Source: Epibacterium sp. Ofav1-8
GTDB lineage: Bacteria > Pseudomonadota > Alphaproteobacteria > Rhodobacterales > Rhodobacteraceae
Assembly (NCBI RefSeq): GCF_022348185.1
Contig: NZ_JAKRFD010000001.1
Span: forward strand, 310,001-374,000
DNA length: 64,000 bases
Reading direction: 5' to 3'
A program made the position numbers and the translations under genes. Positions within the stretch are counted from its first letter, which is position 1, and each line of letters begins with the position of its first letter. Under the pieces are notes generated by a model. That model was not told the DNA's origin. It saw only the letters and a list, made by a program, of their open reading frames with translations, and did no database searches. Positions 35,051 through 51,528 of the stretch are shown one piece after another.

Positions 35051-35214
35051 AGCATTCCATCATGAGGGCCGCGACTGCCTGGGCGGGCGCGCATGCGCCT
35101 GCCGGGGGGCAGGCAGGCGCAGCCCGGGCCGCAAGCGCCCCGGGCGTGAGAGTCGCACCCGTGTTCACCCATTCCCGATCCCTTCGAGCGACCGAAAGGA
35201 CTCGATATGTCTGA
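35047..35214 (+). CDS. Short open frame between phnI and phnJ, doubtful
   Basis: A 55-codon frame starts at an ATG that overlaps the phnI TGA (ATGA) and stops with a TGA inside the first codons of phnJ. The predicted peptide is Ala/Arg/Gly-rich, with no recognised domain. The underlying DNA is hairpin-rich (for example GCCTGCCGGGGGGCAGGC near 35089). It could be a translated spacer that couples phnI to phnJ, or chance. Confidence 0.2.
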   Translation: MKHSIMRAATAWAGAHAPAGGQAGAARAASAPGVRVAPVFTHSRSLRATERTRYV

Positions 35215-36088
35215 CTACAACTTTGCCTACCTCGACGAGCAGACCAAGCGGATGATCCGTCGCGCGATCCTCAAAGGTCTCGCCATCCCCGGTTATCAGG
35301 TGCCCTTTGCCAGCCGTGAAATGCCCATGCCTTATGGCTGGGGCACTGGCGGCGTGCAGGTCTCTGCCGCGGCACTGACACCCGATGACACCTTCAAGGT
35401 CATCGACCAGGGTGCCGATGACACCACCAACGCGGTCTCTATCCGCAAGTTCTTTGAGCGCACCGCAGGTGTCGCCACCACCGAGGAAACCGAAAAGGCC
35501 TCGATCATCCAAACCCGCCACCGCATCCCGGAGGCCGATCTGCGCGAGGATCAGATCATCGTCTATCAGGTGCCGATCCCGGAACCCCTGCGTTTTCTGG
35601 AGCCGCGTGAGACCGAGACCCGCAAGATGCACGCGCTTGAGGAATACGGCCTCATGCATGTGAAACTCTATGAAGACATCAGCCAACATGGCGCCATTGC
35701 TACCGCTTACGCCTATCCGGTGAAGGTGGAGGGGCGCTACGTGATGGATCCGTCTCCCATTCCGAAGTTCGACAACCCCAAGATGGAAATGGCCGCGATC
35801 CAGCTCTTTGGTGCGGGGCGGGAGCAGCGTATCTACGCAGTTCCGCCCTACACCAAAGTGGTCTCTCTCGATTTCGAGGACTACCCGTTCGAGGCCACCA
35901 AGGCCGACCACCCCTGTGATCTCTGCGCCGCAGAGGACAGCTATCTCGACGAGGTGATCCTCGATGATCAGGGCGGGCGGATGTTCGTCTGCTCCGACAC
36001 CGACTATTGCCGCTCTCGGCGTGAGGCGGGCCATGTGGGCCGTCTGGGCCAGGACGCTCCTCTCACCACCGGACCGGAGGCCGCGTGA
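35207..36088 (+). CDS. phnJ: C-P lyase, radical SAM subunit PhnJ
   Basis: Catalytic radical-SAM enzyme of 293 aa that cleaves the C-P bond of ribose 1-phosphonate 5-phosphate, releasing the alkane and the 1,2-cyclic phosphate. The non-canonical 4Fe-4S pattern C-x2-C-x21-C-x5-C is exact here, from HPCDLCAAEDSYLDEV to FVCSDTDYC. GYQVPFASREMPMPYGWGTGG near residue 30 is also conserved. Its TGA overlaps the phnK ATG by one base. Confidence 0.97.
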   Translation: MSDYNFAYLDEQTKRMIRRAILKGLAIPGYQVPFASREMPMPYGWGTGGVQVSAAALTPDDTFKVIDQGADDTTNAVSIRKFFERTAGVATTEETEKASIIQTRHRIPEADLREDQIIVYQVPIPEPLRFLEPRETETRKMHALEEYGLMHVKLYEDISQHGAIATAYAYPVKVEGRYVMDPSPIPKFDNPKMEMAAIQLFGAGREQRIYAVPPYTKVVSLDFEDYPFEATKADHPCDLCAAEDSYLDEVILDDQGGRMFVCSDTDYCRSRREAGHVGRLGQDAPLTTGPEAA

Positions 36089-36858
36089 TGCATCCCCTTC
36101 TGAAAGTCAACAATATCAAAAAGATGTACGGCCATCGCATCGGCTGTACGGATGTCTCCTTTGACCTTTATCCGGGCGAAGTCATGGGCATCGTGGGCGA
36201 GTCCGGTTCCGGCAAGTCCACCTTGCTGAACTGCCTTGCGGGTCATCTGGACACGGACGGCGGCGAGGTGATCTTTGACACCCGGGATCGTGGTCCCGTC
36301 GATACGCTCACCATGTCGGAACCCGAGCGCCGCATGCTTGGACGCACCGACTGGGCCTTTGTGCACCAGCATGCGCGCGAGGGCCTGCGCATGTCGGTCT
36401 CTGCCGGTGGTAACATCGGTGAGCGGCTGATGGCCGTCGGCGACCGCCACTATGGCAACATCCGCGACCGTGCCGTCGACTGGCTCGACCGCGTGGAGAT
36501 CGACGAGAGCCGGGTGGATGATCGCCCGACGGCGTTTTCGGGCGGCATGCAGCAACGCTTGCAGATTGCCCGCAACCTCGTCACTGGCCCGCGTCTGGTG
36601 TTCATGGACGAACCCACCGGCGGTCTTGATGTATCGGTACAGGCGCGGCTTTTGGATCTGCTGCGTGGCTTGGTGCGCGAAATGGGCCTTTCGGCGATTA
36701 TCGTCACCCATGACCTCGCGGTGGTGCGCCTGCTGGCGGATCGCCTGATGGTTATGAAGTCGGGCCACGTCGTGGAAACCGGCCTCACCGATCAGGTGCT
36801 GGATGATCCTCAGCATGCCTATACGCAGTTGCTGGTCTCCTCCGTGTTGCAGGTGTGA
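36088..36858 (+). CDS. phnK: C-P lyase ABC-type ATPase PhnK
   Basis: ABC-family ATPase of 256 aa that docks on the PhnGHIJ core and is not part of a transporter. Walker A is GESGSGKSTLLN (about 36-47), the signature FSGGMQQRLQIARNL (about 150-164) and Walker B LVFMDEPTGGLDV. The ATG at 36088 has GGAGG 7 nt upstream; a GTG three bases earlier is less well spaced. A terminator-like hairpin lies in the 72-bp gap before phnL. Confidence 0.95.
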   Translation: MHPLLKVNNIKKMYGHRIGCTDVSFDLYPGEVMGIVGESGSGKSTLLNCLAGHLDTDGGEVIFDTRDRGPVDTLTMSEPERRMLGRTDWAFVHQHAREGLRMSVSAGGNIGERLMAVGDRHYGNIRDRAVDWLDRVEIDESRVDDRPTAFSGGMQQRLQIARNLVTGPRLVFMDEPTGGLDVSVQARLLDLLRGLVREMGLSAIIVTHDLAVVRLLADRLMVMKSGHVVETGLTDQVLDDPQHAYTQLLVSSVLQV

Positions 36859-36871
36859 CTTGATGCGTTCT

Positions 36872-36912
36872 GCCTGCGCGATGGATGCAGACGCGCGGCA
36901 GGCTTCTTTTTA
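36872..36912 (+). terminator. Terminator-like hairpin between phnK and phnL
   Basis: GCCTGCGCG (36872-36880) pairs with CGCGCGGCAGGC (36892-36903) with one bulged base, followed by TTCTTTTTAT. It lies inside the C-P lyase operon, so it may act as an attenuator that sets a lower level for phnL and later genes. Complete termination would require a separate promoter for phnL. Confidence 0.55.
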
Positions 36913-36930
36913 TCGTTGGAAAGGCTGGCT

Positions 36931-37635
36931 ATGACCGCTTCTCAAACTCCCATGATCGACATTCAAAATGTCTCCAAGACCTTCACACTGCACAATCAGG
37001 GCAGCGCCCTGATCCCGGTGATGGAAGGGGCCACCCTTTCGGTGAACCCCGGCGAATGTGTCGGGCTGATCGGTGCCTCGGGCGCCGGAAAATCGACCCT
37101 GATGCGGCTGATTTACGGCAATTACCTTGCCGCCTCCGGCCATATCATGATCGGTGGGCTGGATGTCGCCAATGCCGAGCCGCGCGAAATTCTGGAACTG
37201 CGCCGCAAGACACTGGGCTATGTGAGCCAGTTCCTGCGGGTGGTGCCACGGGTCTCGACGCTGGATGTGGTGGCAGAGCCGCTCTTGTCCGTTGGCACCC
37301 CGGTGGAAAAGGCCCGCGACCGCGCGGCGTCGCTTCTGGCGCAGCTCAACATTCCCGAGCGGCTCTGGACTCTGAGCCCCACAACCTTCTCCGGTGGCGA
37401 ACAGCAGCGGGTCAATATTGCGCGTGGCTTTGCCTATGACTACCCGGCGATGCTGCTCGACGAGCCGACCGCCAGCCTTGATGCGCAGAACCGTGCAACG
37501 GTGCTGAACCTCATTGAGACCGCCAAGGAGCGCGGCGCGGCCATCATCGGCATCTTCCACGACGAATCCGCCCGTGAACAGGTCTGCGACCGTTTCATCG
37601 ATGTCTCGGCCTTTGCCCCCAAGGCCGCCGCATGA
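36931..37635 (+). CDS. phnL: C-P lyase ABC-type ATPase PhnL
   Basis: ABC-family protein of 234 aa. Walker A is [13 protein letters not shown] (about 41-53), the signature is FSGGEQQRVNIARGFAYD and Walker B is MLLDEPTASLDAQNR. With PhnGHI it supports the first, nucleosidase-type step, and it can dock with PhnK on the core complex. The ATG at 36931 (MTASQTPMIDIQNVSKTF) has AAGG upstream. Its stop overlaps the phnN start by four bases (ATGA). Confidence 0.95.
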   Translation: MTASQTPMIDIQNVSKTFTLHNQGSALIPVMEGATLSVNPGECVGLIGASGAGKSTLMRLIYGNYLAASGHIMIGGLDVANAEPREILELRRKTLGYVSQFLRVVPRVSTLDVVAEPLLSVGTPVEKARDRAASLLAQLNIPERLWTLSPTTFSGGEQQRVNIARGFAYDYPAMLLDEPTASLDAQNRATVLNLIETAKERGAAIIGIFHDESAREQVCDRFIDVSAFAPKAAA

Positions 37636-38204
37636 GCGCGCCTGCCGACAATAACCCCGCAAAAGGGCCGGTGATTGCCGTTGTCGGCCCCTCGGGCGTC
37701 GGCAAGGACAGTCTGATGAGCGGTCTTGCCGTGGCCGATCCGCGCCTGCGCAGCATGCGGCGCGTCATCACCCGCGCGCCAGAGGCCGGGGGGGAGGATT
37801 ATCAACCCGTCAGCGAGGCGGAGTTCGCGGCCCTGGTCGAGGCGGATGTCTTTGCGCTCCACTGGGAGGCCCATGGGCTGCGCTACGGCGTGCCGCGCGA
37901 CATCGAGAAACTGCGCGTGGGCGCGTCCGGTGTGCTGGTGAACCTGTCACGCGCGGTGCTTTTGCAGGCGCAGGAGGTGTTTGACGACTTCCGCGTGATT
38001 TCCGTCACCGCCCGGCCAGAGGTTCTGGCAGAGCGGCTGGCAGGCCGAGGGCGCGAGGATGCCGATGAGGTCAAACGCCGCCTTGCACGCGCCAGCCTCG
38101 CGCTGCCCGACGGGCTGAAACAGGTCTATGAGGTGGACAACAGCGGCGATCTTTGCGCCGCCATCGTCCAAGCTCAGTCGATCATTCAGGCCAAGAGGGG
38201 GTAG
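37632..38204 (+). CDS. phnN: Ribose 1,5-bisphosphate phosphokinase PhnN
   Basis: Guanylate-kinase-like P-loop kinase of 190 aa that phosphorylates ribose 1,5-bisphosphate to PRPP. The P-loop is VVGPSGVGKDSLMSGL (about 18-33). RMRRVITRAPEAGGEDYQPVSEAEF follows the guanylate-kinase pattern, and AERLAGRGREDADEVKRRLAR is lid-like. It is coupled to phnL by an ATGA overlap. Its last 19 bp overlap the 3' end of the convergent DUF1045 gene. Confidence 0.95.
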   Translation: MSAPADNNPAKGPVIAVVGPSGVGKDSLMSGLAVADPRLRSMRRVITRAPEAGGEDYQPVSEAEFAALVEADVFALHWEAHGLRYGVPRDIEKLRVGASGVLVNLSRAVLLQAQEVFDDFRVISVTARPEVLAERLAGRGREDADEVKRRLARASLALPDGLKQVYEVDNSGDLCAAIVQAQSIIQAKRG

Positions 38205-38869
38205 CGTTGGATCAGGTGAAAACGCCCATCCTCGGCCTCGCCCATCAGCGCCAGATCGTTGATCTCAAAGGGCTGTGGCAACAGCGGCGCCAGTTCGGTC
38301 GCGAGGTAATCCTCGACCGCGGGCAGATCGCCCTTGGGCAGCTTGCCGGTGAGGGTGATGTGAAAGCGGAACTGATCCAGCACATAAGGATACCCCCACT
38401 GGATGAGGTTTGTGTCCTGCTCTGCGCTCAGTCCCGCCGCCCGGCGTTTCTCGATTTCCGCATCGGATGCGGGCGCGCGAAAGGCGTCAAGCTCGGTGAC
38501 GCAAGCCGCTGCCAGCGCATTCAGCGCGTGCACATCCCCAAGCGGGCGCAGCGCCAGAAACCGGCCCAGACGTTCCACCTGCAAACCATCCAGGCGGACG
38601 GGGGCGCGGGTGGCGGCCAGTGCCGCGCATGCTGCGCGCAGGGCGTCCTCATCGGTGCCCGTCGCCAGCCGCATCGGCGGCTTCATTGTCGCATGCAGCC
38701 CGTATTTGCGCGGCGTTGCCGTGATCGCCGCCACATCCAACGCTCCGGCGTCGGGGAGCGCGGTCGCACAGCCCGCCTCCATATCCCAACCGAGCCAGCC
38801 GGTTGCCCATTTGCTCCACGCCGCCTCGGCGGGGGGCGCATAATAGATCGCGTATCGCGTAAATGTCAC
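38186..38869 (-). CDS. DUF1045 phosphonate-operon protein, 2H-phosphoesterase fold
   Basis: Protein of 227 aa of the DUF1045 family regularly found in C-P lyase clusters. Two H-x-T motifs are present, HATMKPP (about residue 58) and FHITLTGKLP (about 167), the signature of 2H phosphoesterases that open cyclic phosphates. The gene is read from GTG at 38869 with AGGAGG upstream. It is inverted inside the operon, convergent with phnN and divergent from phnM. With no PhnP (metallo-beta-lactamase cyclic phosphodiesterase) in the window, it may open the 1,2-cyclic phosphate made by PhnJ. That role is inferred. Confidence 0.9.
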   Translation of the reverse strand: MTFTRYAIYYAPPAEAAWSKWATGWLGWDMEAGCATALPDAGALDVAAITATPRKYGLHATMKPPMRLATGTDEDALRAACAALAATRAPVRLDGLQVERLGRFLALRPLGDVHALNALAAACVTELDAFRAPASDAEIEKRRAAGLSAEQDTNLIQWGYPYVLDQFRFHITLTGKLPKGDLPAVEDYLATELAPLLPQPFEINDLALMGEAEDGRFHLIQRYPLLA

Positions 38870-38921
38870 ATTGGCCTCCTAAGACGTGGGCCTTCCCTAT
38901 CCCGAAAGATGTGAACTTCAG

Positions 38922-40064
38922 ATGACACAAGAGTTGATCCTTGCCAATGCCACGCTGATCCTTGCAGGTGAAACCCGCACAGGCAGCTTGAAAATCAGCC
39001 AAGGCGTGATTTCCGACATCTCCGAGGGTACCGCTGTCCCTGCCGGTGCGGTGGATCTTGAGGGCGATTTCCTCAGCCCCGGTCTGGTGGAACTGCACAC
39101 GGACAATCTGGAACGCCACATCGAACCGCGCCCCGGCGTCGACTGGCCCCACGCGGCAGCGCTGGTGGCCCATGACGCGGAATTGGCCTCCACCGGGATC
39201 ACCACGGTGTTTGATGCGATGCGGGTGGGCTCGATCCCGCGCGGCAAGGGGCGCTACCTGAAATATGCCCGCCAGCTTGCCACCGAGATGCTGGAGTTGC
39301 GCGCCAAGGACATGCTGAAGATCAGCCACTTCCTGCACCTGCGCGCCGAGGTCTGTTCGGAAACGCTGGCCGAGGAGCTGTCGGAATTCACCGCCGAGGA
39401 CCGCGTCGGGCTGGTCAGCCTGATGGACCACACGCCGGGTCAGCGCCAGTTCCGCGATATCTCCAAGCTCGAACAATATGTGAAATCCAAACGCGGCATG
39501 TCGGATGAGGAGTTCATCAACCATGTGGCCGAGCTGAAAGACCTGCGCGCGCGATACGGCGATATGCACGAAGCGGCCACGGTATCTGAGGCCGCGCGGT
39601 TTGGGGCGGTGCTGGCAAGCCACGATGACACCACCGCCGAGCAGGTCGCCACCTCCGCAAGCCACGGCATCCGACTGGCCGAGTTTCCCACCACGGTCGA
39701 GGCGGCTCGGGCCTGTCACGAGCATGGCATCAAGGTGATGATGGGCGCGCCAAACCTCATTCGCGGCGGGTCGCATTCCGGCAATGTCGCGGCGCGCGAG
39801 CTTGCGGATCTGGAACTGCTGGACATCGTCTCGTCGGATTACATCCCGGCGGCACTGTTGCAGGCGGCGGTCAAACTCGGTGACATCTGGGGCGATCTGG
39901 CGCGGGGTATGGCGACGGTGACAGCAGCGCCTGCTGCTGCGGTTGGCTTGACGGATCGCGGGGTGCTGGAGGTTGGCAAACGCGCAGACCTGATCCGGTT
40001 CCGTGTTGGCGAAGGGGTTCCGATGCCACGGGCCGTCTATGCGCGCGGTGCGCGTGTCGCCTGA
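38922..40064 (+). CDS. phnM: RPnTP hydrolase PhnM
   Basis: Amidohydrolase-superfamily enzyme of 380 aa that removes pyrophosphate from ribose 1-phosphonate 5-triphosphate. The metal motif is LSPGLVELHTDNLERHIEPRPG, where PhnM proteins have H-x-D in place of H-x-H. Further metal ligands occur in KISHFLHLRAEVCSE and VLASHDDTTAEQV. It ends with the amidohydrolase beta-sandwich segment GVLEVGKRADLIRFRV. The ATG at 38922 lacks a strong SD. It is 52 bp from the divergent DUF1045 gene, so it either has its own promoter or relies on read-through. A terminator-like hairpin follows. Confidence 0.95.
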   Translation: MTQELILANATLILAGETRTGSLKISQGVISDISEGTAVPAGAVDLEGDFLSPGLVELHTDNLERHIEPRPGVDWPHAAALVAHDAELASTGITTVFDAMRVGSIPRGKGRYLKYARQLATEMLELRAKDMLKISHFLHLRAEVCSETLAEELSEFTAEDRVGLVSLMDHTPGQRQFRDISKLEQYVKSKRGMSDEEFINHVAELKDLRARYGDMHEAATVSEAARFGAVLASHDDTTAEQVATSASHGIRLAEFPTTVEAARACHEHGIKVMMGAPNLIRGGSHSGNVAARELADLELLDIVSSDYIPAALLQAAVKLGDIWGDLARGMATVTAAPAAAVGLTDRGVLEVGKRADLIRFRVGEGVPMPRAVYARGARVA

Positions 40065-40461: not shown

Positions 40462-40941
40462 CTACCCGGCGCGGTAGAACATGTAACGGCCTTCGGGGAT
40501 GCCTTCGGGGCCGTCGATTTCCTCAAACCCCACCAGTGGCTGGCCTGAGATGATCAGCCCTCCCGCTGCCATGACCTGCAAAATCGCGGGCGAGAGTTTT
40601 GCGGCTTCGGCAACATCCTGTTCCTTGACGCCAAACCCCAGATCGTAATGGGCAAGCGCCAGCCGATGCCCGCCGTCTGCAAGTCGCGCCAGCATCGGTT
40701 CTGCCTCGCCTTGCAGGAAGTTTTCTTCCGGGGGCACACAGGAGGGGTGGCATTGCAGGACGCGATCAATGACCCAGACCCGCCGCTCCGGCATGACCTC
40801 GCGCAGATGGTCATAGGTGCGTCCGTTGCCCAATCCCAGATCAAGCACATCCCCCGCAATGCCCGAGATCTGCTGCGCGGCCCAGTTGAGCCCATCGCGT
40901 TGCGCAGTGAGGCGGCGCAGCATGCTGTCCAGTCGGCTCAT
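40462..40941 (-). CDS. Small SAM-dependent methyltransferase (paralogue 1)
   Basis: Protein of 159 aa with a Rossmann methyltransferase motif I, DVLDLGLGNGRTYDHLRE (about 29-46), an acidic motif II WVIDRVL and a post-motif segment LALAHYDLG. It aligns along its whole length with the product of 57667-58158, sharing LGLGNGRTY, a Pro-rich IPPE-like loop, and an EGRxxxYR-type C-terminus. Its acceptor is unknown. The gene is last in the seven-gene glycan operon; its ATG at 40941 is one base after the deacetylase stop, with AAGGA upstream. Confidence 0.8.
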   Translation of the reverse strand: MSRLDSMLRRLTAQRDGLNWAAQQISGIAGDVLDLGLGNGRTYDHLREVMPERRVWVIDRVLQCHPSCVPPEENFLQGEAEPMLARLADGGHRLALAHYDLGFGVKEQDVAEAAKLSPAILQVMAAGGLIISGQPLVGFEEIDGPEGIPEGRYMFYRAG

Positions 40942-40942
40942 C

Positions 40943-41701
40943 TCAGCCAATCCTTTCATTGAAACGCCAAGGGTGTGCCGGGCCATCCAGCAGTCGGCGC
41001 AGCAGTGTTTCGCAGAACTCCCACACCTCGTCACTGTGCACAAGGTGATGCGTCAGCAGGCCAAGTGGCTCTGCGTTATCTTGCTGACCGGTGCGGCGCG
41101 CTATGAGCGTGTCGACCAACGGTGTCAGGAGGTGCTCCTCGGGCACCAGACCCCGTCCATGTTTCCAGTCGATGGGATCGATATGGGTGTTGATCTGCAC
41201 CAGACCCGGCGCGGCCTGAACGCGCTTGCGTGGCCCATAGGTGGAGATCGCAGCAAAGCCCAGACCCGCAAGCCAGGGCAGCATGGCTGGAGAAATCCGG
41301 TTCCAGGGGGGCACAAACATCGGCTGCAACGCCGGACCAAACAGATGTTTCAGGCGATCCATCCCCTGTTCCGCCGCGTTGAGCGCCTCATCCACCGGGC
41401 GGGTACTGGGAAATTCGCATTTCTTCTTGTCGGCGCTGGCGTGGTTTTTATGCGCCCAGCCATGCACCACCGGGATCAGGTGGCTGGATTGCGCAACCGC
41501 CTGTGCCAGTTCCTGCTGCGCAGTTTCGGGGATCACCGCCAGATGCACCGGCAGGTCGAGCCGCGTCGCCAGTGTCTCCAGCCGGACCAGCGCCTCGGTG
41601 GGCGCAATCGCATCATCATCCCGCCACCAGAGCGGTAGCCGCAGGCCCTCCGTGGCCCAATGCGCCAACTCCGCGTCCAGCGCGTCCCAGCCTTGTGTCA
41701 T
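40943..41701 (-). CDS. Polysaccharide deacetylase-fold protein
   Basis: Protein of 252 aa with a NodB-like barrel in a divergent form. LPLWWRDDDAIAPTEALVRL (about 22-41) provides the aspartate pair, VVHGWAHKNHA the H-x3-H-like histidines and FVPPWNRISPAMLPWLAGLGF the Pro-rich motif 3. LLTHHLVHSDEVWEF near the C-terminus supplies the late histidine motif. These motifs suggest a metal-dependent N- or O-deacetylase acting on a glycan. There is no signal peptide, so cytoplasmic action during assembly is likely. The ATG at 41701 is 20 bp after the glycosyltransferase stop. Confidence 0.82.
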   Translation of the reverse strand: MTQGWDALDAELAHWATEGLRLPLWWRDDDAIAPTEALVRLETLATRLDLPVHLAVIPETAQQELAQAVAQSSHLIPVVHGWAHKNHASADKKKCEFPSTRPVDEALNAAEQGMDRLKHLFGPALQPMFVPPWNRISPAMLPWLAGLGFAAISTYGPRKRVQAAPGLVQINTHIDPIDWKHGRGLVPEEHLLTPLVDTLIARRTGQQDNAEPLGLLTHHLVHSDEVWEFCETLLRRLLDGPAHPWRFNERIG

Positions 41702-41721
41702 GTCCGTCCCCCCCGTTGCGC

Positions 41722-42861
41722 TCAAGCGCGCTGCCGCCTCAGCAGCGTTGCGGCAATCTCCACGCTCCGCTGCGCCCCGTCAAATTCAAAGCCGTCAAGG
41801 CCGCGTTGCGTATCGTGCATGGCACGGGAGAGTGCGGCGCACAGACGAGCCGGGGTGAGGGTTGCTGCGCCCTCCACCTCAATGCCTGCGAGGGGCGAAA
41901 GGCTCTGGGCGCGCAAGGATTGTTCCACCTCTTTGCCCGCATCAAACGGCACCAGAACGGCGGGTGTGCCGGATTGCAGCAGATCAAGCGCGGTGTTGTA
42001 GCCACACATGCTGACCGAGGCCGCCGCATGAGGCAGCATGGCGCGAAACTCCGGGCGGGCAGGTTCCAGGATCGCGGGCGAGCCTGCATCCTCAAGATCT
42101 GCGATGCGCGCCCGTGCATCCGCGCCGCCAACCAGAATGCGCCAGCGGTAATCGGGCATCAGTTTGGCGGCCTCGATCGCGCAAGCGTAAAGCGCATCCC
42201 CCACGCTGCCACCGCCGGCACTGACGAGGATTTCCCCTTTGCCGAGGCCCTCGGGGTGCGGTGCAGCAGCAGGTGGTGCGACATAGCCGGTATACTGCAG
42301 CCGTGACGCCAGCATCTCTGAGACCGGCCAACTGACGTCCAGCGTCGTGGCCTTGGGGTCTGAGTGAACGAGCACGCCATCGTAAAAGGTGGCGATCATT
42401 GCATCGGCGTCTTCGGCCTTTTTGGGCTTTGAGGGCGGTGCGAGGATGTCGCGGATCGACGACAGCACCAGCGGACGACGAGGCAGCGCATGCGCGGCCT
42501 CCAGCAGGGCGCGAAACTCATCCCGGAGGGAACGACGACCAAACGGATAGAGCTCGGTGATCAGCACATCCGGCTGCTGATCCTGAATCAGTGCCTGCAT
42601 CTGCTGACGCCTGCGCATCAGATAAGCCTCATCCGCAACCGTGCCATCCGTGCCAAGCAGGCGCGAGAACTCCACGCCATCAGAGCGCAGAGGCGGTAGC
42701 TGTTCAAACTGCAGACCCTGCGCAGAGAGTTGCGGTGCCGGAAAGCCACCAGAAACTACCGTAACCTGATGATTTTCCGACGCAAATGCGCGCCCCAGTG
42801 TCAGGGCGCGTGACAGGTGCCCGGTGCCCAGAAGGTGGGTGACGGCAATCAGAACCTTCAT
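41722..42861 (-). CDS. GT-B glycosyltransferase, MurG/UGT-like
   Basis: Glycosyltransferase of 379 aa. The N-terminal domain begins MKVLIAVTHLLGTGHLSRALTLGRA, with the G-T-G-H acceptor-side loop shared with MurG and UDP-glycosyltransferases. The C-terminal donor domain has ILVSAGGGSVGDALY and SVSMCGYNTALDLLQSGTPAVLVPFD, the nucleotide-sugar-binding signature. No membrane helix is seen. It overlaps the phosphatase gene by four bases (ATGA). Donor and acceptor are unknown; the homologous gene at 45786-47009 has the same architecture. Confidence 0.85.
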   Translation of the reverse strand: MKVLIAVTHLLGTGHLSRALTLGRAFASENHQVTVVSGGFPAPQLSAQGLQFEQLPPLRSDGVEFSRLLGTDGTVADEAYLMRRRQQMQALIQDQQPDVLITELYPFGRRSLRDEFRALLEAAHALPRRPLVLSSIRDILAPPSKPKKAEDADAMIATFYDGVLVHSDPKATTLDVSWPVSEMLASRLQYTGYVAPPAAAPHPEGLGKGEILVSAGGGSVGDALYACAIEAAKLMPDYRWRILVGGADARARIADLEDAGSPAILEPARPEFRAMLPHAAASVSMCGYNTALDLLQSGTPAVLVPFDAGKEVEQSLRAQSLSPLAGIEVEGAATLTPARLCAALSRAMHDTQRGLDGFEFDGAQRSVEIAATLLRRQRA

Positions 42862-43442
42862 GATGGCCGTCGCTCAAGTCGAATGGGATCGGGCCAGGGC
42901 GTGAGCTTGTCGCGCGAAACCTCCACCACAAAGAGCCGATTGCGTTTGACCTGAAACGGAGCAGGGCCGTCGAAATCCCAGCCATGGGCGCGGGCAAGGA
43001 TCATACGCATGATCCCGATATGGCAGACCGCGACGGTGTCGCGCGCGAGGCTCTTGATCCACGGATCGATGCGGTTCCAGACCTCAAGCGGGCTTTCACC
43101 GCCGGGGGGGCGATAGTCCCAGCCCCAGTGTTCGATGTCGCGAAAGCCGGACGCGGGATCTGCACGCAGGTCCACCCCGTGCTGGCCTTCCCATGCGCCC
43201 CAGTTCATTTCGATGAGTGCAGGCGTGGTCTGGGGCGCGCGCCCGGCCACAAGCGTGGCGGTTTCAGCGGCGCGTGTCAGGGGGCTGGACCAGAGATCCG
43301 CGTCGTTCCAACCCTCGGGGAGAGACTGCGCGGCGAGGTCTGCGCGTGCGGTCTCGTCAAGCGGGATGTCGCTGCGCCCCTGAATGCGGCCCGCACGGTT
43401 CCACGCGGTATGGCCGTGACGCAGCAGGGCAAGGCGGATCAT
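42858..43442 (-). CDS. Histidine phosphatase superfamily protein
   Basis: Phosphoglycerate-mutase-like phosphatase of 194 aa. The catalytic R-H-G motif is LALLRHGHTAWNRAGRIQG (His10 as phosphohistidine). The second catalytic histidine lies in TVAVCHIGIMRMILARAHG, where cHIGI replaces the usual sHGG. It may dephosphorylate a sugar phosphate or lipid-linked intermediate of the glycan pathway, which is inferred from its place in the middle of a glycosyltransferase operon. Overlaps of four bases join it to both neighbours. Confidence 0.88.
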   Translation of the reverse strand: MIRLALLRHGHTAWNRAGRIQGRSDIPLDETARADLAAQSLPEGWNDADLWSSPLTRAAETATLVAGRAPQTTPALIEMNWGAWEGQHGVDLRADPASGFRDIEHWGWDYRPPGGESPLEVWNRIDPWIKSLARDTVAVCHIGIMRMILARAHGWDFDGPAPFQVKRNRLFVVEVSRDKLTPWPDPIRLERRPS

Positions 43443-44545
43443 GTGCCCCGTTCCTGTATCAGTGGCCCCAGCGCAGCCCAAAGGGTGTCTGCAGCGGCGG
43501 GTCGCAGGTGGTGGGTGGCGATATGTTCGCGCGCCCGCCGCCTGAGGTCGTCGCGCTCAGAGGCACTGTCGAGAAGGCGCAGAACGCGGCCCGCCAGTGC
43601 GAAGGCCCCGGCGTCGGGCGCAGGATAGGCATCGGGCATTGCGGGCAGCAGCACATCGCGCAGGCCGGGGCGGTCTTGCGCCACCACGGGCAGCCCGTGG
43701 GATTGCGCCTCCAGGTAAACCATGCCGAAGGCTTCATTGACGCCGGGCCACAGGAACAGCTGTGCTGCGCAATAGGCCTCTGCCATGGCTGCGGCATCGA
43801 GCTGACCGAGAAAGCGCACGCGCGTTCCAAAGCGTGCAAAAAGCGATTCCACCTCGGTGCGCGCGGGGCCGTCGCCCGCAATCAAGAGCTGCCAGTCGAC
43901 CGCGCGCTCTGTGCTCTCCAGATGGCGCAGCGTCTCGGCGATGAGCGCATAGGAGGCCAGCTTGTCACCCCGCCGCATCATACCGGCAGCAAGCATTGGG
44001 CCATCACCCGTGCTGGGCGCGGGGAGGGCATCTTGCGGCAGGAAGGGGCGCAAGTGCACCAATTTCTGGTTGCCTGCGCGATCGCGCTCCAGCGTCTCGC
44101 GGTCCTGTTCGGTGAGGTAGAAAATCACCGCCGCCTGATCCGCTGCCGCATGTGCGGCTTGGGCAAATTCCGACCACGGGCCCGTCAGGCGTTTGCTGGC
44201 GCGGGTGCTCTCGATCTGCACATAAGGAATGTCACGGGCGGCCGCCAAGGCGGGGCCGATCAGATCGGGGGCCTTGTAATAGTTATGATAGGTGACCCAG
44301 GCGTCGACCTCGGGCAGCTCTTCGATCAGGCGGCCCACCTCATCCGCAGCGCGCTGTTGCAGGATCTGCTGGTGGTCGCGGTCGCCGAGTTTGTCATGCA
44401 GGCGCAGCTCAGACGCGAGAATGACCTCCTCACCACCCCTTTCCAACAGGCCCATCAGGCTTTGTGCCATGGCCCGGTCGCCGGAGGGCGTCGGATGGGT
44501 CGGGGCCTTCATCGGCGCATAATAGGCGATGCGGGGCGCGGTCAT
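43439..44545 (-). CDS. Glycosyltransferase, GT4-like family (A)
   Basis: GT-B glycosyltransferase of 368 aa. The N-terminal half carries IAYYAPMKAPTHPTPSGDRAMA and the central region QLLIAGDGPARTEVESLFARFG. The C-terminal donor site FLWPGVNEAFGMVYLEAQSHGLPVVAQDRPG has the E-x7-E pattern of retaining GT4 enzymes. It is cytoplasmic or membrane-associated. It overlaps both neighbours by four bases, so its dosage is tied to theirs. Confidence 0.88.
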   Translation of the reverse strand: MTAPRIAYYAPMKAPTHPTPSGDRAMAQSLMGLLERGGEEVILASELRLHDKLGDRDHQQILQQRAADEVGRLIEELPEVDAWVTYHNYYKAPDLIGPALAAARDIPYVQIESTRASKRLTGPWSEFAQAAHAAADQAAVIFYLTEQDRETLERDRAGNQKLVHLRPFLPQDALPAPSTGDGPMLAAGMMRRGDKLASYALIAETLRHLESTERAVDWQLLIAGDGPARTEVESLFARFGTRVRFLGQLDAAAMAEAYCAAQLFLWPGVNEAFGMVYLEAQSHGLPVVAQDRPGLRDVLLPAMPDAYPAPDAGAFALAGRVLRLLDSASERDDLRRRAREHIATHHLRPAAADTLWAALGPLIQERGT

Positions 44546-45789
44546 GCAGCGCCCTTGAGCATGGCGTTCAGGCGGGTGTTCAGCTGCCGGATGCCCGGGT
44601 CCATGCCAAAATCACGTCGCAGGCGGTTGAGCGCGGCGTCGGCCATGCGGCGGGCCTCGTCTGGGGCATGCGCGAGGCGCAGCATCGCATCGGCAAGCGC
44701 TGCGGGCGCGTCATCACTGAGGAGACCATGGGTGCCGCTTTGGATGAATTCCGGGATCGCCGACACGGGCGTCGACAGGATCGGCAGGCCCTGCGATGCG
44801 GCCTCCATCAGAACATTGGGCAGCCCGTCGCGGTCACCGTCCTCTGCCACACGCGAGGGCAGCACAAAAAGGTCGGCGGCGCGCATGGCGGCGATCACCT
44901 CCGGCTGGTCACAGGCACCGCGCCATGTGATGCGCGCTGCAATCCCTGCGTCCTCGGCCATGCCTTGCAGCAGATCGCCCAGCCCGCCACCGCCAATATG
45001 GGTCCAGTGCCAGTCCAGATCCACAGGCAGCAGCGCCAGTGCGGCGATCAGCCGGTCAAAGCCCTTTTTCTCGACGAGGCGCCCCACCGACATCATGTGA
45101 AAGGAGGCGTCAGGCGCGCGCAGCTCCCGGTCGGGCGGGGCTGGGAACCGCGTCAGGTCAAGGCCGTGATAGATCAGATCCACCGGAGTGCCAGCCGAGA
45201 GGTCTTGCAGGTGTTTCGCGCCAAAGCCCGTGCAGGTCGCGCCAAAGGCCGCGCCTTGGGTCTGTGATGAGAGCTTTTCGCGCAACTCCCATTCGGGCGA
45301 GGTCCAGATGTCCTTGGCGTGGGCGGAAAAGCTCCATGGCAGGCCGCGCATGATCGCGGCGTAGCGTGCCACCGATGAGGGCGTGTGCAGGAAATGCGCA
45401 TAGAGGCCGCGCACCTCGGGCGGCAGTTCCGCCGCCAGTACACAGGCCTGACCAAAGCGGCGCACCCGGTTGCGGGTCGGATCACGGCGCAGGTCCGCGC
45501 GCCAGACGCGATAGGCGGCGGCATAGCCGGGCAGGGCCTGCGCGATGGCGCGCGATCTGGCGACGCGGGCCGGGTCGTCATACAGATATTCCGGCAGGTA
45601 GTGCACCGGGGCCTGCAAACGATCGTGCAGCGGGTGGGTCTTGGTGTCGGTGGGGTGACGCAGCGACCAGATTTCAAACGGCTGGCCTGCGTCCTCGAGG
45701 GCGACAAGTTCCTGCGCGATAAAGGTCTCGGACAGGCGCGGCCAGCCCTTGACCAGCACGGCGAGCGCCGGACGGCGGGTCATGTTCAT
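44542..45789 (-). CDS. Glycosyltransferase, GT4-like family (B)
   Basis: GT-B glycosyltransferase of 415 aa. It begins LAVLVKGWPRLSETFIAQELVALE, a form common in colanic-acid-type (WcaL-like) GT4 enzymes. The donor domain has MMSVGRLVEKKGFDRLIAALALL and LFVLPSRVAEDGDRDGLPNVLMEAASQGLP with the E-x7-E pattern. LYAHFLHTPSSVARYAAIM in the middle is typical of this subgroup. Four-base overlaps (ATGA) link it to the genes on both sides. Confidence 0.9.
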   Translation of the reverse strand: MNMTRRPALAVLVKGWPRLSETFIAQELVALEDAGQPFEIWSLRHPTDTKTHPLHDRLQAPVHYLPEYLYDDPARVARSRAIAQALPGYAAAYRVWRADLRRDPTRNRVRRFGQACVLAAELPPEVRGLYAHFLHTPSSVARYAAIMRGLPWSFSAHAKDIWTSPEWELREKLSSQTQGAAFGATCTGFGAKHLQDLSAGTPVDLIYHGLDLTRFPAPPDRELRAPDASFHMMSVGRLVEKKGFDRLIAALALLPVDLDWHWTHIGGGGLGDLLQGMAEDAGIAARITWRGACDQPEVIAAMRAADLFVLPSRVAEDGDRDGLPNVLMEAASQGLPILSTPVSAIPEFIQSGTHGLLSDDAPAALADAMLRLAHAPDEARRMADAALNRLRRDFGMDPGIRQLNTRLNAMLKGAA

Positions 45790-47009
45790 TCGGCAGCCTC
45801 ACGCGGCAAGAGATGCAGAAGGTGGTCGACACGGCCGGTCACATAGTCGAGCCCGTCGAGCAGCCCGTCGGAAATCGCCTGCGAGGGGCGGGGTTGACGG
45901 TCGAGGGCGCGGATCGCGCCGATCATGGCATCCGGTGTCCAGCCGTCGCGGGTCTCGTCCAGCATGGTGACAAGGCCCAGCTCCTCGGCGCGGCTGGCGC
46001 GGATCCATTGCTCCAGCCGCGGCGTGGTGCGGGGCACGATCACGGCCGGTTTGTCAAAGGACAGGACCTCGCAGAAGGTGTTGTAACCGCCCATGCAGAT
46101 CACCCCCTGGGCACCGGCAAACAGGGTCTCGATCTGGCTTTCAAAGCCGACAGCGGTGACACGACCGTCCAGTGCCGCGACGCGGTCCTCGAACGCGGCG
46201 CGGGTCTCGCCCGAGAGGAACGGGCCGTAGACCAGCATCGCGCGGGGCGTCAGGCTGGGGTCACGCTCGTAGGCCGAGATCGCCAGATCCACCATCATCG
46301 CACCATCGCCACCGCCGCCGGGGGTGATCAGCACATAGGGCTGTTCGGGCGGCTCTCCGACCTCGCCGAGGTCCCGGCGCAGGTAGCCGGTCCAATGCAT
46401 GCGGGCCTGTGCCGCCGCACTCAGATCCAGCCCGGCGGTGGGGTCGTAGACATCGCGCAGGCCATAAACCCAGATCTCGTCGTAATACTGTTCGGTGGCC
46501 GCCAGCGCGCCCTTGCGATCCCATTCGGCGCTCAGCACCTCGGGCTCGTCCAGCACGTCGCGCAGGCCCAGCACCAGCTTGGCCTTGCCGCGGTGCTGCA
46601 ACAGGTCGAGCGTGGGCAGCAACTCGCCGCGAAAGCCGCAGGGTTCCTTGTCCACCACCAGCACATCCGGGTCGAACTGTTCGGCGGTGGAGCGGATCAG
46701 ACCGGCGCGCAACTCGGTGGTTTCCTCGATGGTCATGCCCATGGTGCGGCTGGCATAGGAGCCGTCGGCGCGTTTGATGACACCGGGCAGGCGCATGTGG
46801 TCGACCCGGTTGGGAAAGGCAAAGCGCCCCGCCACCGGCGAGCCGGTCAGGATCATCGCCGAGGCGGTGGGATCGGCAGAGGTGATCGCCGCCGCCAGCG
46901 CCCGCGAGCGGCGCAGGTGGCCAAGCCCAAAGGTGTCGTGGCTGTAGAACAGGATGCGCGGACCGCGCCCCGCCTCTGGGCCCAATCGGGACGTGGTGCT
47001 GGCACTCAT
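45786..47009 (-). CDS. Predicted glycosyltransferase (COG4671-like), first gene of the glycan operon
   Basis: GT-B glycosyltransferase of 407 aa. RILFYSHDTFGLGHLRRSRALAAAI (about 19-43) is the hallmark N-terminus of a poorly studied group of predicted transferases. YVLITPGGGGDGAMMVDLAI and GVICMGGYNTFCEVLSFDKPAVIVPR form the donor site, and TTPRLEQWIRA follows. No enzyme activity can be assigned beyond the fold. It leads the seven-gene minus-strand operon and is divergent from a mechanosensitive channel gene across a 436-bp region. Confidence 0.85.
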   Translation of the reverse strand: MSASTTSRLGPEAGRGPRILFYSHDTFGLGHLRRSRALAAAITSADPTASAMILTGSPVAGRFAFPNRVDHMRLPGVIKRADGSYASRTMGMTIEETTELRAGLIRSTAEQFDPDVLVVDKEPCGFRGELLPTLDLLQHRGKAKLVLGLRDVLDEPEVLSAEWDRKGALAATEQYYDEIWVYGLRDVYDPTAGLDLSAAAQARMHWTGYLRRDLGEVGEPPEQPYVLITPGGGGDGAMMVDLAISAYERDPSLTPRAMLVYGPFLSGETRAAFEDRVAALDGRVTAVGFESQIETLFAGAQGVICMGGYNTFCEVLSFDKPAVIVPRTTPRLEQWIRASRAEELGLVTMLDETRDGWTPDAMIGAIRALDRQPRPSQAISDGLLDGLDYVTGRVDHLLHLLPREAAE

Positions 47010-47445: not shown

Positions 47446-49833
47446 ATGCAGAGCCTGATAAGCCTGTTTCGGTTGTGGATCGCGGTGGCAGTGCTGTGTG
47501 TCCTGTCCGTGGGGGGCGCCCAGGCCCAGACCGCGCTCAACAGCGTTGCCGGACGCGACAATGCGGGCGACGCCAGCGCCCTGGCGGAGGCGATCCGGCA
47601 GGCCTCGGAGGCGGGCGTTGGTGTGGTGATCCTGGATGGCAGCGGACGGCCGCTGACCGGGGCGGCGGCGCTGGCCGAAGCCGAGGCGGAAATGGCCAAT
47701 GAGCCGGGCGTCATGGGCGGGGCCTCGTCGATGATGAAGGCGCAGACCCGGATGCGCGAGTTCCGGGCCCAGCTGAACGAGCGCCTTGAGGCGCTGCCCA
47801 ACTCCTATATCGAGATGGCCTATATTCTGCGCGCTACCAGCCCCGACGGGCGCATCATGACCTATGTGGAGGTCATGGTGATCACGCTGCTGCTGTTGTT
47901 GATCGGTCGCTGGCTGTCGGTCGAGATCTATGGCAAGCGCCTGATAAAACGGTTTGTGGTCAGCCGGATCGAGGACGCGCCCGAGGGCTATGCGGGCAAG
48001 ATGCCGTTCCTGCTGATCCGCTTCTTTGCCGGGCTCGGGGCAACGCTGTTTGCCATGGTCTTTGCGCTGGTGGTGACGCTGCTTGTCTTTGGTCCCTCCG
48101 GCGATGTCTCGGTGGAGTTCACCTCGCTTGCGGTCTACCTGACCTTCTTTGCCGCCCGCACGGCGTCTGATCTGTGGCGCATGGTGCTGTCGCCTTACCT
48201 CAGCCAGTACCGCATTCCGGCGCTGGAGGACCGGGCGGCACGGCGGCTGTATCTGTGGCTATCGGGATTGGCGACGTTTGATTTTGCGGCGGTCATGATT
48301 GCAACCTGGGTGCAGGACTTCGGCCTCAACTACAATATCTACGTGCTGACCTATGCCATCCTGATGCTGGTCTCGTCGCTGTTGGGGATCTTGCTGGTGC
48401 TGGTCAACGCGCGGGCGGTCTCGGCGGCGATCCGCAACGCCGGGGCGGCGCATGTCGTGGCCTGGCCGAACCGCCTGTTGTCCTGGATCTGGGCCCCGAT
48501 GGTGATCCTCTATATCGCGTTCGGCTGGCTGGCGCTGACCTTTGATCTGGTGCTGGAGAACCCCAGCCCGGTGCCGCCGAACATGGGGCTGTTTGCGGTG
48601 CTGAGTTCGATCCTCGTGGTCTATGGCCTGATCAACTACGTCATCGAACAGTTTGCGACCCGGCGCCGCCGCGCCGAAATCGTCGCGGAACCTGCCGCGG
48701 GAGATACCGACGCGGAGGGTGATCCGGAGGGCTCGGTTGCAGGCGACGGGCAGGCGCCGGCCGGAGTGCCGCGGCACCCGATCGCCACCTTCCGCGATCT
48801 TGCGCGCCGTGCCGCTGGCATTCTTGCGTTCCTCGGCGGGGCGGTGTCGCTGATCTATGTCTGGAACCCGGATTTTTCGCTGGAGGAGAACTCGGTTCTC
48901 GACCGGATCATCGACGTGCTGGTGATCCTGTTCATCGGCTATCTGGTCTTTCATATCGCCCGGATCTGGATCGACAGCAAGATCGAGGAGGAAAGCCAGG
49001 ATCAGGAGGACGGCGAGCTTGGCGATGAAGGCGGCGCCTCCAGCGCCAGTCGTCTGGCAACCCTGCTGCCGCTGTTTCGCGGTGCGATCCTCGCCGTCGT
49101 GATCGTCACCATCGTGTTGATTGTCCTGATGGAGATCGGCATCAACGTCAGCCCGCTGTTCGCCGGCGCCGGTGTCGTTGGCCTGGCGGTGGGCTTTGGC
49201 TCGCAGACGCTGGTGCGGGATATTTTCTCGGGCGCCTTCTTCCTTTTGGATGATGCGTTCCGGCGGGGCGAGTATATCGACATCGGCAGCGTCAAGGGCA
49301 CGGTGGAGAAGATTTCCGTGCGGTCGTTCCAGTTGCGCCATCACCTTGGGGCGCTGCACACGATCCCCTTTGGCGAAATCCAGGTGCTGACCAACTACTC
49401 CCGTGACTGGGTGATCATGAAGCTGCCCTTGCGGGTGACCTATGACACCGACGTGGAGAAGGTGCGTAAGCTGATCAAAACCCTCGGCAAGGAGCTGCTG
49501 AAGGATGAGGTGATCGGCCACAACTTCATCCAGCCGCTGAAGTCGCAGGGGGTGATCGAGATGCAGGATTCGGCGATGATCATCCGGGTGAAGTTCATGA
49601 CCAAACCGGGCGATCAGTGGCTGGTGCGCAAGAAGGTGTTCCAGGAGATCCGCGACCTGTTTGAGCGCGAAGGAATCAAGTTCGCGCATCGGGAGGTCAC
49701 GGTTCGGGTCGTGGACGACAGTGAGGAGCGCAACACGCCGGCGCGACGGGATGCAGCACTTGGGGCGGCACAGGCAGCGATCGAGGACGATCTGATGGAT
49801 GCCAATGACGGCGGCGGCGGGGACGACCGCTGA
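47446..49833 (+). CDS. Large MscS-family mechanosensitive channel
   Basis: Membrane protein of 795 aa. A signal peptide (MQSLISLFRLWIAVAVLCVL, probable cut after AQA) is followed by a periplasmic region of about 110 residues and roughly ten membrane helices. The C-terminal MscS core has the pore helix GVVGLAVGFGSQTLVRDIFSG and the beta-domain IDIGSVKGTVEKISVRSFQLR. The predicted cytoplasmic linkers are acidic (EIVAEPAAGDTDAEGDPEG and EEESQDQEDGELGDEGG). It is much longer than MscS and resembles MscK/YbdG-like large forms. It protects against hypo-osmotic shock. A palindromic element follows the stop. Confidence 0.93.
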   Translation: MQSLISLFRLWIAVAVLCVLSVGGAQAQTALNSVAGRDNAGDASALAEAIRQASEAGVGVVILDGSGRPLTGAAALAEAEAEMANEPGVMGGASSMMKAQTRMREFRAQLNERLEALPNSYIEMAYILRATSPDGRIMTYVEVMVITLLLLLIGRWLSVEIYGKRLIKRFVVSRIEDAPEGYAGKMPFLLIRFFAGLGATLFAMVFALVVTLLVFGPSGDVSVEFTSLAVYLTFFAARTASDLWRMVLSPYLSQYRIPALEDRAARRLYLWLSGLATFDFAAVMIATWVQDFGLNYNIYVLTYAILMLVSSLLGILLVLVNARAVSAAIRNAGAAHVVAWPNRLLSWIWAPMVILYIAFGWLALTFDLVLENPSPVPPNMGLFAVLSSILVVYGLINYVIEQFATRRRRAEIVAEPAAGDTDAEGDPEGSVAGDGQAPAGVPRHPIATFRDLARRAAGILAFLGGAVSLIYVWNPDFSLEENSVLDRIIDVLVILFIGYLVFHIARIWIDSKIEEESQDQEDGELGDEGGASSASRLATLLPLFRGAILAVVIVTIVLIVLMEIGINVSPLFAGAGVVGLAVGFGSQTLVRDIFSGAFFLLDDAFRRGEYIDIGSVKGTVEKISVRSFQLRHHLGALHTIPFGEIQVLTNYSRDWVIMKLPLRVTYDTDVEKVRKLIKTLGKELLKDEVIGHNFIQPLKSQGVIEMQDSAMIIRVKFMTKPGDQWLVRKKVFQEIRDLFEREGIKFAHREVTVRVVDDSEERNTPARRDAALGAAQAAIEDDLMDANDGGGGDDR

Positions 49834-50181: not shown

Positions 50182-51528
50182 TCAGGCGGCGTCCCACCGG
50201 GGCGCATATGTGCCGCTCGGAGAGGCGGGCCATCTCCAGCACATCGCGCAGCCCTCCAGGCTCAGGGGCGGCGAGAGGCGTCGTGCCGGCCCCCAGCCGC
50301 TGTCCTCATGGGGCCCGAGATCCGCCGCATCGGCGGTGTGGATCTGGACGCCTCCCAGATCTTTGGGCAGTGCCACCAGCGTTTCGGCCATCCGCGCCAG
50401 CGACAGTCGTGCCACCGCGACCTCCTCGCCCCGGGCCGCCGCCGCCAGGGCGGACAGAACCGCTGCGGCCATCAGATAGCCTGTGCCGTGATCCAGCGCC
50501 TGCACGGGCAGCGGCGTCGGCCGGTCGCTCCGAGCCCAGTCCTGCCCGGCGTGGGCGATCCCGGCGCTCATCTGGACCAGGCTGTCAAAGCCGCGCCGCC
50601 CGGCCCAGGGACCGGTCCAGCCATAGGCGTTCAGCGTCACCTCGATCCGGTTGGGCGCAATGGCATCGCGCGTCGCCAGATCGAGCCCCAATGCCTCCAA
50701 CGCCCCGGGCCGATAACCGTGCACCAGCACATCCGCCTGCGCGAGCAGGTCCTTCAGCCGCTCCCGGTCGAGCGCACTGCGCAGATTGAGCTGCGCCATG
50801 TATTTCCCCAGGCTGATCTCCTGCAGCACCCCGGGCTCGTCCCAGCCGGGCGGGTCGATCCGCAACACATCGGCGCCGAACCCGGCCAGCGTGCGGGTGC
50901 TGACCGGACCGGCCAGCACGCGCGTCAGATCGAGCACCCGCATCCCCTGAAGCGGGCGCGACAGGCTTGCCTCCGGGCGGTCGCGCAGCACCACGCGGCG
51001 GGGCTTGATCCAGTCTACCAGCGGCTCCTCTGCCACCGCCTCACCCTGTGGATGCGTCTGCCAGTCCGCGCGGCTGCGCAGGGCGGCCGCGACACCGCCG
51101 GCGGCGATCACTGCCTGTTCAAGCGGATCGCCGCCCCAATGTGCAACCTCTGCCGCGACAGCCTCCCGGTCCTCGGCGCAGCCCAGCACGGAGAGCGCCG
51201 CAGCGCGGTGGTGCGGCAGGTTGGTGTGCAGGCGGATCCAGCCATCGGCGCAGGGATAGTCCCCAGCGATCGGATCCCAGAGCGCGGGCATCTCCCAGCC
51301 ATCCGGGTGAAAGGACGCGCCGAACCACAAGGACGCCAGACGCTGATCCACCGTGACCTCCGGCGCGCGCGCGGCGAGGTTCAGCGCCGCGATCAGATCC
51401 GCCATGGCCAGCCCCACCGCAGCAACCGACGCATTGGCCAGTTCCGACACCGCGTAGGCACTCGGCCGGTGGCCGGTGCCGGTGACGCGATAGGAGCCGG
51501 GGGGCGGGAGGGAGGTCAGGAGTGTCAT
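50182..51528 (-). CDS. Family III CoA-transferase-like protein with permuted domain order
   Basis: Protein of 448 aa. The usual family III N-terminal domain appears only from residue about 192 (PLQGMRVLDLTRVLAGPVST, then ADVLVHGYRPGALEALGLD). The likely catalytic Asp315 lies in RRGFDSLVQMSAGIA. The first 190 residues instead resemble the part that normally comes later (YPCADGWIRLHTNLPHHRAA). The C-terminus ends in WPASPSGTYAPRW, as in CaiB/BaiF relatives. It overlaps the YejE-like permease gene by four bases, an unusual partner for a peptide importer. Substrate unknown. Confidence 0.82.
   Translation of the reverse strand: MTLLTSLPPPGSYRVTGTGHRPSAYAVSELANASVAAVGLAMADLIAALNLAARAPEVTVDQRLASLWFGASFHPDGWEMPALWDPIAGDYPCADGWIRLHTNLPHHRAAALSVLGCAEDREAVAAEVAHWGGDPLEQAVIAAGGVAAALRSRADWQTHPQGEAVAEEPLVDWIKPRRVVLRDRPEASLSRPLQGMRVLDLTRVLAGPVSTRTLAGFGADVLRIDPPGWDEPGVLQEISLGKYMAQLNLRSALDRERLKDLLAQADVLVHGYRPGALEALGLDLATRDAIAPNRIEVTLNAYGWTGPWAGRRGFDSLVQMSAGIAHAGQDWARSDRPTPLPVQALDHGTGYLMAAAVLSALAAAARGEEVAVARLSLARMAETLVALPKDLGGVQIHTADAADLGPHEDSGWGPARRLSPPLSLEGCAMCWRWPASPSGTYAPRWDAA

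Follow-up and report, generated by a model that had tools for sequence, protein, structure and literature searches.

What do seven tightly coupled genes on the minus strand of Epibacterium sp. Ofav1-8 (Rhodobacteraceae) build, and do they work alone? They lie at positions 40462-47009 of a 64,000-nucleotide stretch, called the window here (contig NZ_JAKRFD010000001.1, positions 310,001 to 374,000), and the original prediction described them as one dedicated glycan pathway in which no transport genes were seen. That picture was incomplete, since a family-5 ATP-binding cassette (ABC) importer at 51525-57517 and an ABC-exporter-like protein also belong to the module. The absence of an export gene holds for the seven genes and fails for the system, as the exporter-like protein is encoded just outside the window. 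We consider it very probable that the operon, the importer and the ABC protein are linked as one module. The operon is thus part of something larger, because its gene neighbours are strand-consistent and its partners co-occur across the class Alphaproteobacteria.

The operon is ordered A-B-C-D-E-F-G, and its predicted products are as follows. Gene A (GT-A, 45786-47009) encodes a GT-B glycosyltransferase (GT) of the GT28/MurG/UGT-like kind with a GLGH motif, identified with Pfam, an AlphaFold model and a class profile search. Two GT4 glycosyltransferases follow, the EpsE/WcaL-like B (GT4-B, 44542-45789; Pfam and NCBIfam) and C, with an EX7E motif (GT4-C, 43439-44545; Pfam, NCBIfam and alignment). 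D (42858-43442) is a branch 1 histidine phosphatase (Pfam PF00300, His_Phos_1, and alignment), and E (GT-E, 41722-42861; Pfam and alignment) is a second GT-B glycosyltransferase, with a GTGH motif. F (40943-41701, ATG start) is a CE4/NodB-type deacetylase according to an AlphaFold model, a fold match and an alignment, and G (40462-40941) is a PF12692 (Methyltransf_17) methyltransferase dependent on S-adenosylmethionine (Pfam and PDB 3iht). Exactly four bases are shared at each of the A/B, B/C, C/D and D/E junctions, and the spacing is 20 bp between E and F and 1 bp between F and G. The coordinates and the Pfam or model assignments agree with the layout first described, with its four ATGA overlaps and last two genes within about 20 bp of the preceding stop.

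We compared 80 named loci, the best 80 of at least 447 relatives in one scan of a genome collection, picked by similarity to E. The complete order on a single strand was found in 71 of the 80; five others had A-F but lacked G, and of these L173 lies at a contig end; a further four were cut at a contig end. Although the loci were picked by E similarity, the shared gene order is far beyond chance. The four-base overlaps recurred at A/B (75/76), C/D (75/78), D/E (71/80) and B/C (21/77), counts that depend on the start codons chosen by script. Finding the genes apart in relatives was to count against a dedicated glycan pathway; this check was run, the genes were kept together, and the pathway claim is supported. 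In a protein search, strong E matches (E <= 1e-60) were present in 27 of 120 family genomes and matches at E <= 0.001 in 43, where those beyond the strong set were A-like or other distant GTs. One record titled Nocardioides marinus (L101) carries a Rhodobacterales-type operon with E at 72 percent identity, and this record is probably mislabelled or contaminated.

At the class level, we took stretches of about 20 kb from 40 A-positive genomes (L206-L245), hand-picked for family diversity and long contigs, and added plasmid loci of Azospirillum, Sinorhizobium, Rhizobium and Sulfitobacter. Strand was counted over 41 loci (L206-L246) for genes found by our queries, with A detected in 38. The other enzymes shared the strand of A (B 35/36, C 31/32, D 30/30, E 33/33, F 30/30), and so did the importer ATPase (25/26) and its solute-binding protein (SBP; 26/26). 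The opposite strand carried the ABC protein (26/28), a cyclic-nucleotide-binding (CNB) gene (27/28) and PF12692 (18/18). In these 18 loci where a G homologue was detected, it lay mostly beside the CNB gene and always opposite to the GTs. One example is Sulfitobacter DSM 110093, with the order importer, MscS, nucleoside diphosphate (NDP)-sugar dehydrogenase, A-B-C-D-E-F and ABC protein.

The same partners occur together across genomes. The A profile, which includes sequences of a second context discussed below, matched 132 of 385 class genomes; 127 genomes had both A and the ABC protein, five had A only, five the ABC protein only and 248 neither (odds ratio 1260), in searches run at unequal E-value limits (1e-30, 1e-60) and on related genomes, so that p-values overstate independence. 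Among the 120 family genomes, strong E and the ABC protein (E <= 1e-60) were found together in 24, E only in three, the ABC protein only in none and neither in 93; three genomes (G003, G004, G054) with partial, generic-looking ABC matches were scored as lacking the protein. PF12692 was present in 98/132 genomes with A and in 3/253 without it. Of 398 genomes sampled across the phylum, 32 gave a match to the ABC protein; 31 of these belong to Alphaproteobacteria, and the sole outsider was a partial match.

The ABC protein is about 900 aa long, or 1020-1034 aa when a CNB domain (PF00027) is fused to it. The window genome has two copies, C11:374573-377158, which starts 573 bp past the window, and C7:83271-85826. 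ABC_membrane (PF00664) was found in six of six scanned proteins; the transmembrane half resembles MsbA-like exporters, and the best NCBIfam model was MsbA (182 and 127 bits). Both window-genome copies matched ABC_membrane and cNMP_binding and had no ABC_tran match in Pfam; a partial ABC_tran match over the first part of the nucleotide-binding domain (NBD) was seen in Rhizobium, Azospirillum and one class protein. PF00027 was present in two fused proteins (L252 and L246), in both window-genome copies and in a separate Rhizobium protein, and by this domain match the ABC-linked CNB domain is predicted to be of the cyclic-nucleotide-binding type. We aligned 35 homologues, namely both window-genome copies and 33 sequences taken from class and plasmid loci, and none had Ser or Thr after the Walker A lysine position. 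Since a functional pair of Walker A and B motifs was not found, the ABC protein seems to be a pseudo-ATPase.

Compared with MsbA/NdvA(ChvA)-type (type IV) ABC exporters, the protein shares an ABC_membrane half followed by an NBD-like half and is likewise encoded with GT genes. However, it lost the Walker A Ser/Thr in 35/35 and the Walker B Asp in 31/35 sequences, carries an inserted stretch of roughly 300 aa in which an ENLLFG-type segment recurs, and has CNB fused or adjacent. Within this NBD insertion, the 64-column segment occurs twice (hhalign pairwise P 7.7e-12). The repeat rests on the match of the second to the third segment; a match of the first to the second was discarded because the stretches share residues. 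A weak PADLOC "TIR effector" match (18.5 bits) on the CNB end was taken as chance.

Cyclic-nucleotide regulation of the module is plausible. A cyclase-like gene lies near the importer in loci of Rhizobium and Sinorhizobium, a few class loci have one at 24-30 percent identity, and the window genome has seven cyclase-like matches, none on the window's contig. A family scan of ten open reading frames (ORFs) beside the Rhodobacterales ABC copies gave no clue to the role of the protein; these neighbours, which belong to metabolic, housekeeping-like, transporter or regulator families or have no known function, were Rce1-like, carboxyl transferase, Mur ligase, AFG1, ILVD, MFS, MR_MLE, alcohol dehydrogenase, ArsR and DUF6478 genes.

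The importer appears complete from its protein families and is encoded on the minus strand by permease 2 (51525-52694), permease 1 (52691-53719), the SBP_bac_5 solute-binding protein (53719-55641, its start placed by eye at an ATG before a signal-peptide-like stretch) and a double ATPase (55634-57517). Among characterised proteins, the SBP comes closest to SPH1118 (232 bits), followed by an alpha-galactoside binder (71 bits), both of which bind oligosaccharides. According to PMC9314435, SPH1118 of Sphingomonas A1 binds pectin oligomers and was originally annotated as oligopeptide-binding. Both proteins are large family-5 SBPs with some ligand residues in common: R294 is kept in 34/37 rows, R466 in 33/37 and W594 in 24/37 (11 gaps). 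However, several ligand residues are replaced in the module SBP, which is encoded with biosynthetic genes; the window protein carries substitutions at N53, R496 and N324 and aligns with gaps at R57, E216 and E505. Since only some SPH1118 ligand residues are kept and the full set was not found, pectin is improbable as the ligand and a pectin importer unlikely, while an oligosaccharide is the likely cargo. In R. pomeroyi the module's importer may correspond to SPO0560/SPO0561, going by locus number. Two papers describe SPO0561 as an ABC transporter and SPO0560 as a periplasmic oligopeptide ABC protein for which an antisense RNA exists.

A clue to the product comes from a TviB-like dehydrogenase gene found near the operon in 21/80 named loci, 18 times between MscS and A and three times downstream. 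With 460 bits, the Sulfitobacter enzyme stays below the cut-off of the TviB model (592), and in the PDB it comes closest to UDP-ManNAcA and GalNAcA dehydrogenases and to Cap5O. A homologue with 51 percent identity is encoded on a different contig of the window genome. This points to an N-acetylhexosamine (HexNAc)-uronic acid in the predicted product, which would suit F as a substrate. The Vi-antigen locus of Salmonella (TviB/TviE), which includes export genes, is similar in its TviB-like UDP-HexNAc dehydrogenase, present in some of our loci, and in weak matches of B to TviE. It differs in that our module has a CE4 deacetylase, a phosphatase, an importer and a pseudo-ATPase ABC protein where Vi has its export genes.

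At the enzyme level, residues were counted in rows picked by similarity, with the second-context loci (L083-L092 and L095) left out, so the counts describe conservation within families and not activity. The GT28 C-terminal domain was weak in both A (22.9 bits) and E (27 bits; Pfam cut-off 22). The AlphaFold model of A (mean predicted local distance difference test, pLDDT, 83.7) resembles GT-B enzymes in Foldseek, and A and E are distant paralogues with 27 percent identity. The GLGH of A and GTGH of E, named in the original prediction, are both present in the window sequence. The two glycines and the histidine of GLGH are invariant or near-invariant in 18 rows, and G12, G14, H15 and the GYN motif of E are kept in 149/149. 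B scored 115 bits against the EpsE model (NCBIfam cut-off 400) and weakly against TviE models, and EX7E was not matched in an alignment scan of its homologues. For C, E271 and E279 of this motif are kept in 139/139 and 138/139 rows; its top NCBIfam match is BshA with 60 bits (cut-off 274), over residues 206-345 only.

In D, R8, H9, R57, E78 and H141 are kept in 142/142 rows and G10 in 131/142; the RHG motif and second histidine identify it, at the sequence level, as a branch-1 histidine phosphatase. No Pfam family matched F. Its AlphaFold model, made from 40 sequences (mean pLDDT 92.2), resembles the CE4/NodB deacetylase 3rxz_B (Z 17.9, root-mean-square deviation, rmsd, 3.2, 218 residues), and D28, D29, H80 and H84 are invariant in 137/137 rows. 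By analogy, we take these residues to be the Asp-His-His metal triad and the catalytic Asp. Fold and conserved residues thus define F as a predicted CE4/NodB-type deacetylase, sharing fold and metal triad with ArnD/CE4 enzymes but too distant in sequence for any Pfam match; a signal peptide was absent by eye. The glycine-rich motif of G is kept in 115/115 rows. A direct PDB sequence search gave no match for A, for E or for the profile of F.

A and B also occur in a second context. Distant A-B pairs (31-40 percent identity) were found in 11 family loci, beside another GT4 and an ABC exporter, with APH-type kinases in the two loci checked. A similar set on the E. coli plasmid NZ_CP012501.1 (L250:9998-20176; A 36 and B 35 percent identity) comprises A-B, a GT4, an ABC exporter, two phosphotransferases, an alginate-export-like barrel and a nucleotide sugar dehydrogenase. 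What these loci share with the main module is the distant A and B homologues and, in 3/11 family loci, a D-like phosphatase (30-35 percent). They differ in having APH-type kinases and an exporter ORF with intact Walker A and hhhDE Walker B motifs (11/11), and F had no match across the 11 loci. This supports a link of A-B products to ABC-type export, the ATPase being lost solely in the main context. GT-A matches were found in 10 Escherichia plasmid records in total. In one family locus, a GLGH-type GT (L087:14082-15083) overlaps a phosphotransferase-like gene (L087:13411-14196), both named by eye, and suggests a wider GT-kinase family.

Taken jointly, we tentatively favor, at somewhat less than even chances, a reading in which a glycan is made in the cytoplasm, leaves through the ABC-derived protein and is in part brought back by the importer. 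The GTs A, B, C and E would assemble a cytoplasmic chain of short or medium length, which probably includes an N-acetylhexosaminuronic acid unit, so that the glycan would be acidic and partly de-N-acetylated. F would deacetylate in the cytoplasm, D would strip phosphate from a precursor or the product, and G would methylate some pathway component. The product would then traverse the inner membrane through the MsbA-like ABC protein, with its CNB domain fused or encoded beside it. Because the ATP-binding motifs are lost, this passage would be gated or regulated, not pumped, and the family-5 importer would retrieve the glycan or its fragments. Our data show the gene content, its conservation and co-occurrence, the residues kept in the active sites of D and F, and the loss of the ATPase motifs. 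We infer the sugar identity, the transport direction, the cyclic-nucleotide gating and the order of steps. In particular, the earlier proposal that the GT pair starts or ends the chain, the phosphatase releases an intermediate and the methyltransferase acts as a finishing enzyme was not supported.

Several results weigh against this reading. An ABC protein with dead motifs cannot alone drive transport up a gradient, and L206-L245 held no conserved active ABC partner, only one exporter-like match (L210) and a few weak ABC-ATPase matches of 26-33 percent. The Walker A Lys is kept in 19/35 and the Walker B Asp in 4/35 homologues, so some nucleotide binding may persist. Neither ABC copy of the window genome adjoins the operon, the nearer starting about 17.6 kb from GT-A, and only some loci have a cyclase-like gene close to the importer. 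For the SBP, R438 of SPH1118 is kept in 10/37 rows, N53 is changed to Arg or Lys and R496 to Pro, and the key residue Arg57 falls in an alignment gap. The top PDB match of this protein is a putative oligopeptide binder (5ipw, 268 bits), and its weak NCBIfam matches are peptide, nickel and metallophore binders. Finally, the dehydrogenase adjoins the operon in a minority of loci.

A lipid-linked glycan built on the inner leaflet comes next and is, in our opinion, somewhat unlikely. F would then act like ArnD, the ABC-derived protein would flip the product to give an envelope glycolipid, and the importer would recycle sugars only. F, with no signal peptide by eye, does resemble ArnD (8t0j, Z 15.6, rmsd 3.2, 208 residues), MsbA is the best NCBIfam model of the ABC protein (182 and 127 bits), and the A profile reaches MurG (1f0k, E 1.2e-8), an enzyme that uses a lipid-linked acceptor. 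However, soluble-acceptor UGT-type enzymes are equally close or closer to A, and the conserved genes, in loci with partial ORF annotation, included neither a recognisable initiating phosphoglycosyltransferase nor a lipid-carrier gene.

We judge it rather doubtful that, in this glycan system, an ABC exporter has become an ATP-independent conduit gated by a cyclic nucleotide, the module then encoding the assembly, release and re-uptake of the same glycan in the manner of an osmotic or signalling cycle. Quite improbable is an exopolysaccharide or capsule pathway in which the ABC-derived protein and the cyclic nucleotide would switch a synthase complex allosterically and not serve as a conduit. 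The EpsE/WcaL-like B, the pseudo-ATPase character of the ABC protein and the plasmid A-B set with its alginate-export-like barrel and nucleotide sugar dehydrogenase would suit it, whereas the queries used recognised neither a polymerase nor Wzx/Wzy nor a synthase in the conserved set. Similarly, no flippase/polymerase or Wzm/Wzt pair was recognised among the conserved genes, with partial ORF annotation and no family models searched.

A glycosylated small metabolite of the mycothiol or bacillithiol type, made by a GT, then a deacetylase, then methylation, is very improbable. BshA is the best NCBIfam match of C and a deacetylase gene comes later in the operon, but the BshA score is far under its cut-off and limited to residues 206-345, four GTs exceed the need, and F is a CE4 enzyme while the mycothiol and bacillithiol pathways employ LmbE-type deacetylases. 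That the seven genes act alone, with the importer and ABC protein as unrelated neighbours, is hardly credible, for although MscS and a CoA-transferase gene stand between operon and importer in the window and the ABC copies are located elsewhere, GT and importer genes share a strand in class loci, and GT-A and the ABC protein co-occur over 385 genomes.

Around the operon, the divergent MscS-family channel (47446-49833, plus strand, 795 aa; Pfam) had been read as a hint of an envelope or osmotic role. As a conserved divergent neighbour it holds, being on the opposite strand to the operon in 75/80 named loci; it was seen in Rhodobacterales only and had no match in the 40 class stretches L206-L245. 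A CoA-transferase family III gene (50182-51528) lies between MscS and the importer, and it is present there in many named loci and missing in others. Divergent from the importer genes is a second PF12692 methyltransferase, a G paralogue (57667-58158, plus strand). Extra PF12692-like copies also occur beside the operon or MscS in other loci (L066:7285-7776; L075:1424-2527), including a tandem pair. Beside the 3' end of the operon, at 35207-40064, lie a DUF1045 gene (Pfam) and genes assigned by eye to the carbon-phosphorus (C-P) lyase set (PhnJ/K/L/N/M-like); PhnM and DUF1045 recur at this place in many Rhodobacterales loci. The Phn genes were rejected as part of the module, with PhnM and DUF1045 unmatched in the class stretches. 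We also rejected a defence system, as PADLOC had no match for the seven proteins and MscS, and a phage origin, as PHROGs had no match for A, E and F (three of the seven proteins scanned).

No paper on the operon or module was found in an open-access search, with most subscription papers beyond its reach, and the module seems to be without a described function. The general nature of the operon had been guessed correctly from its sequence; a key part, the importer and the ABC protein with its dead ATPase, lies outside the coordinates then considered.

The module is kept in about one third of the sampled Alphaproteobacteria genomes, including rhizobia and roseobacters. It ties glycan assembly to an ABC protein predicted to lack a working ATPase and to bind cyclic nucleotides. 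Because the partner genes co-occur tightly, single deletions and a shared phenotype can probe each gene. If the gating model is true, the module would represent a new mode of glycan transport, or of its regulation, at the inner membrane, and if the conduit reading is true, it would be, in principle, a bacterial counterpart of channel- or receptor-like ABC proteins.

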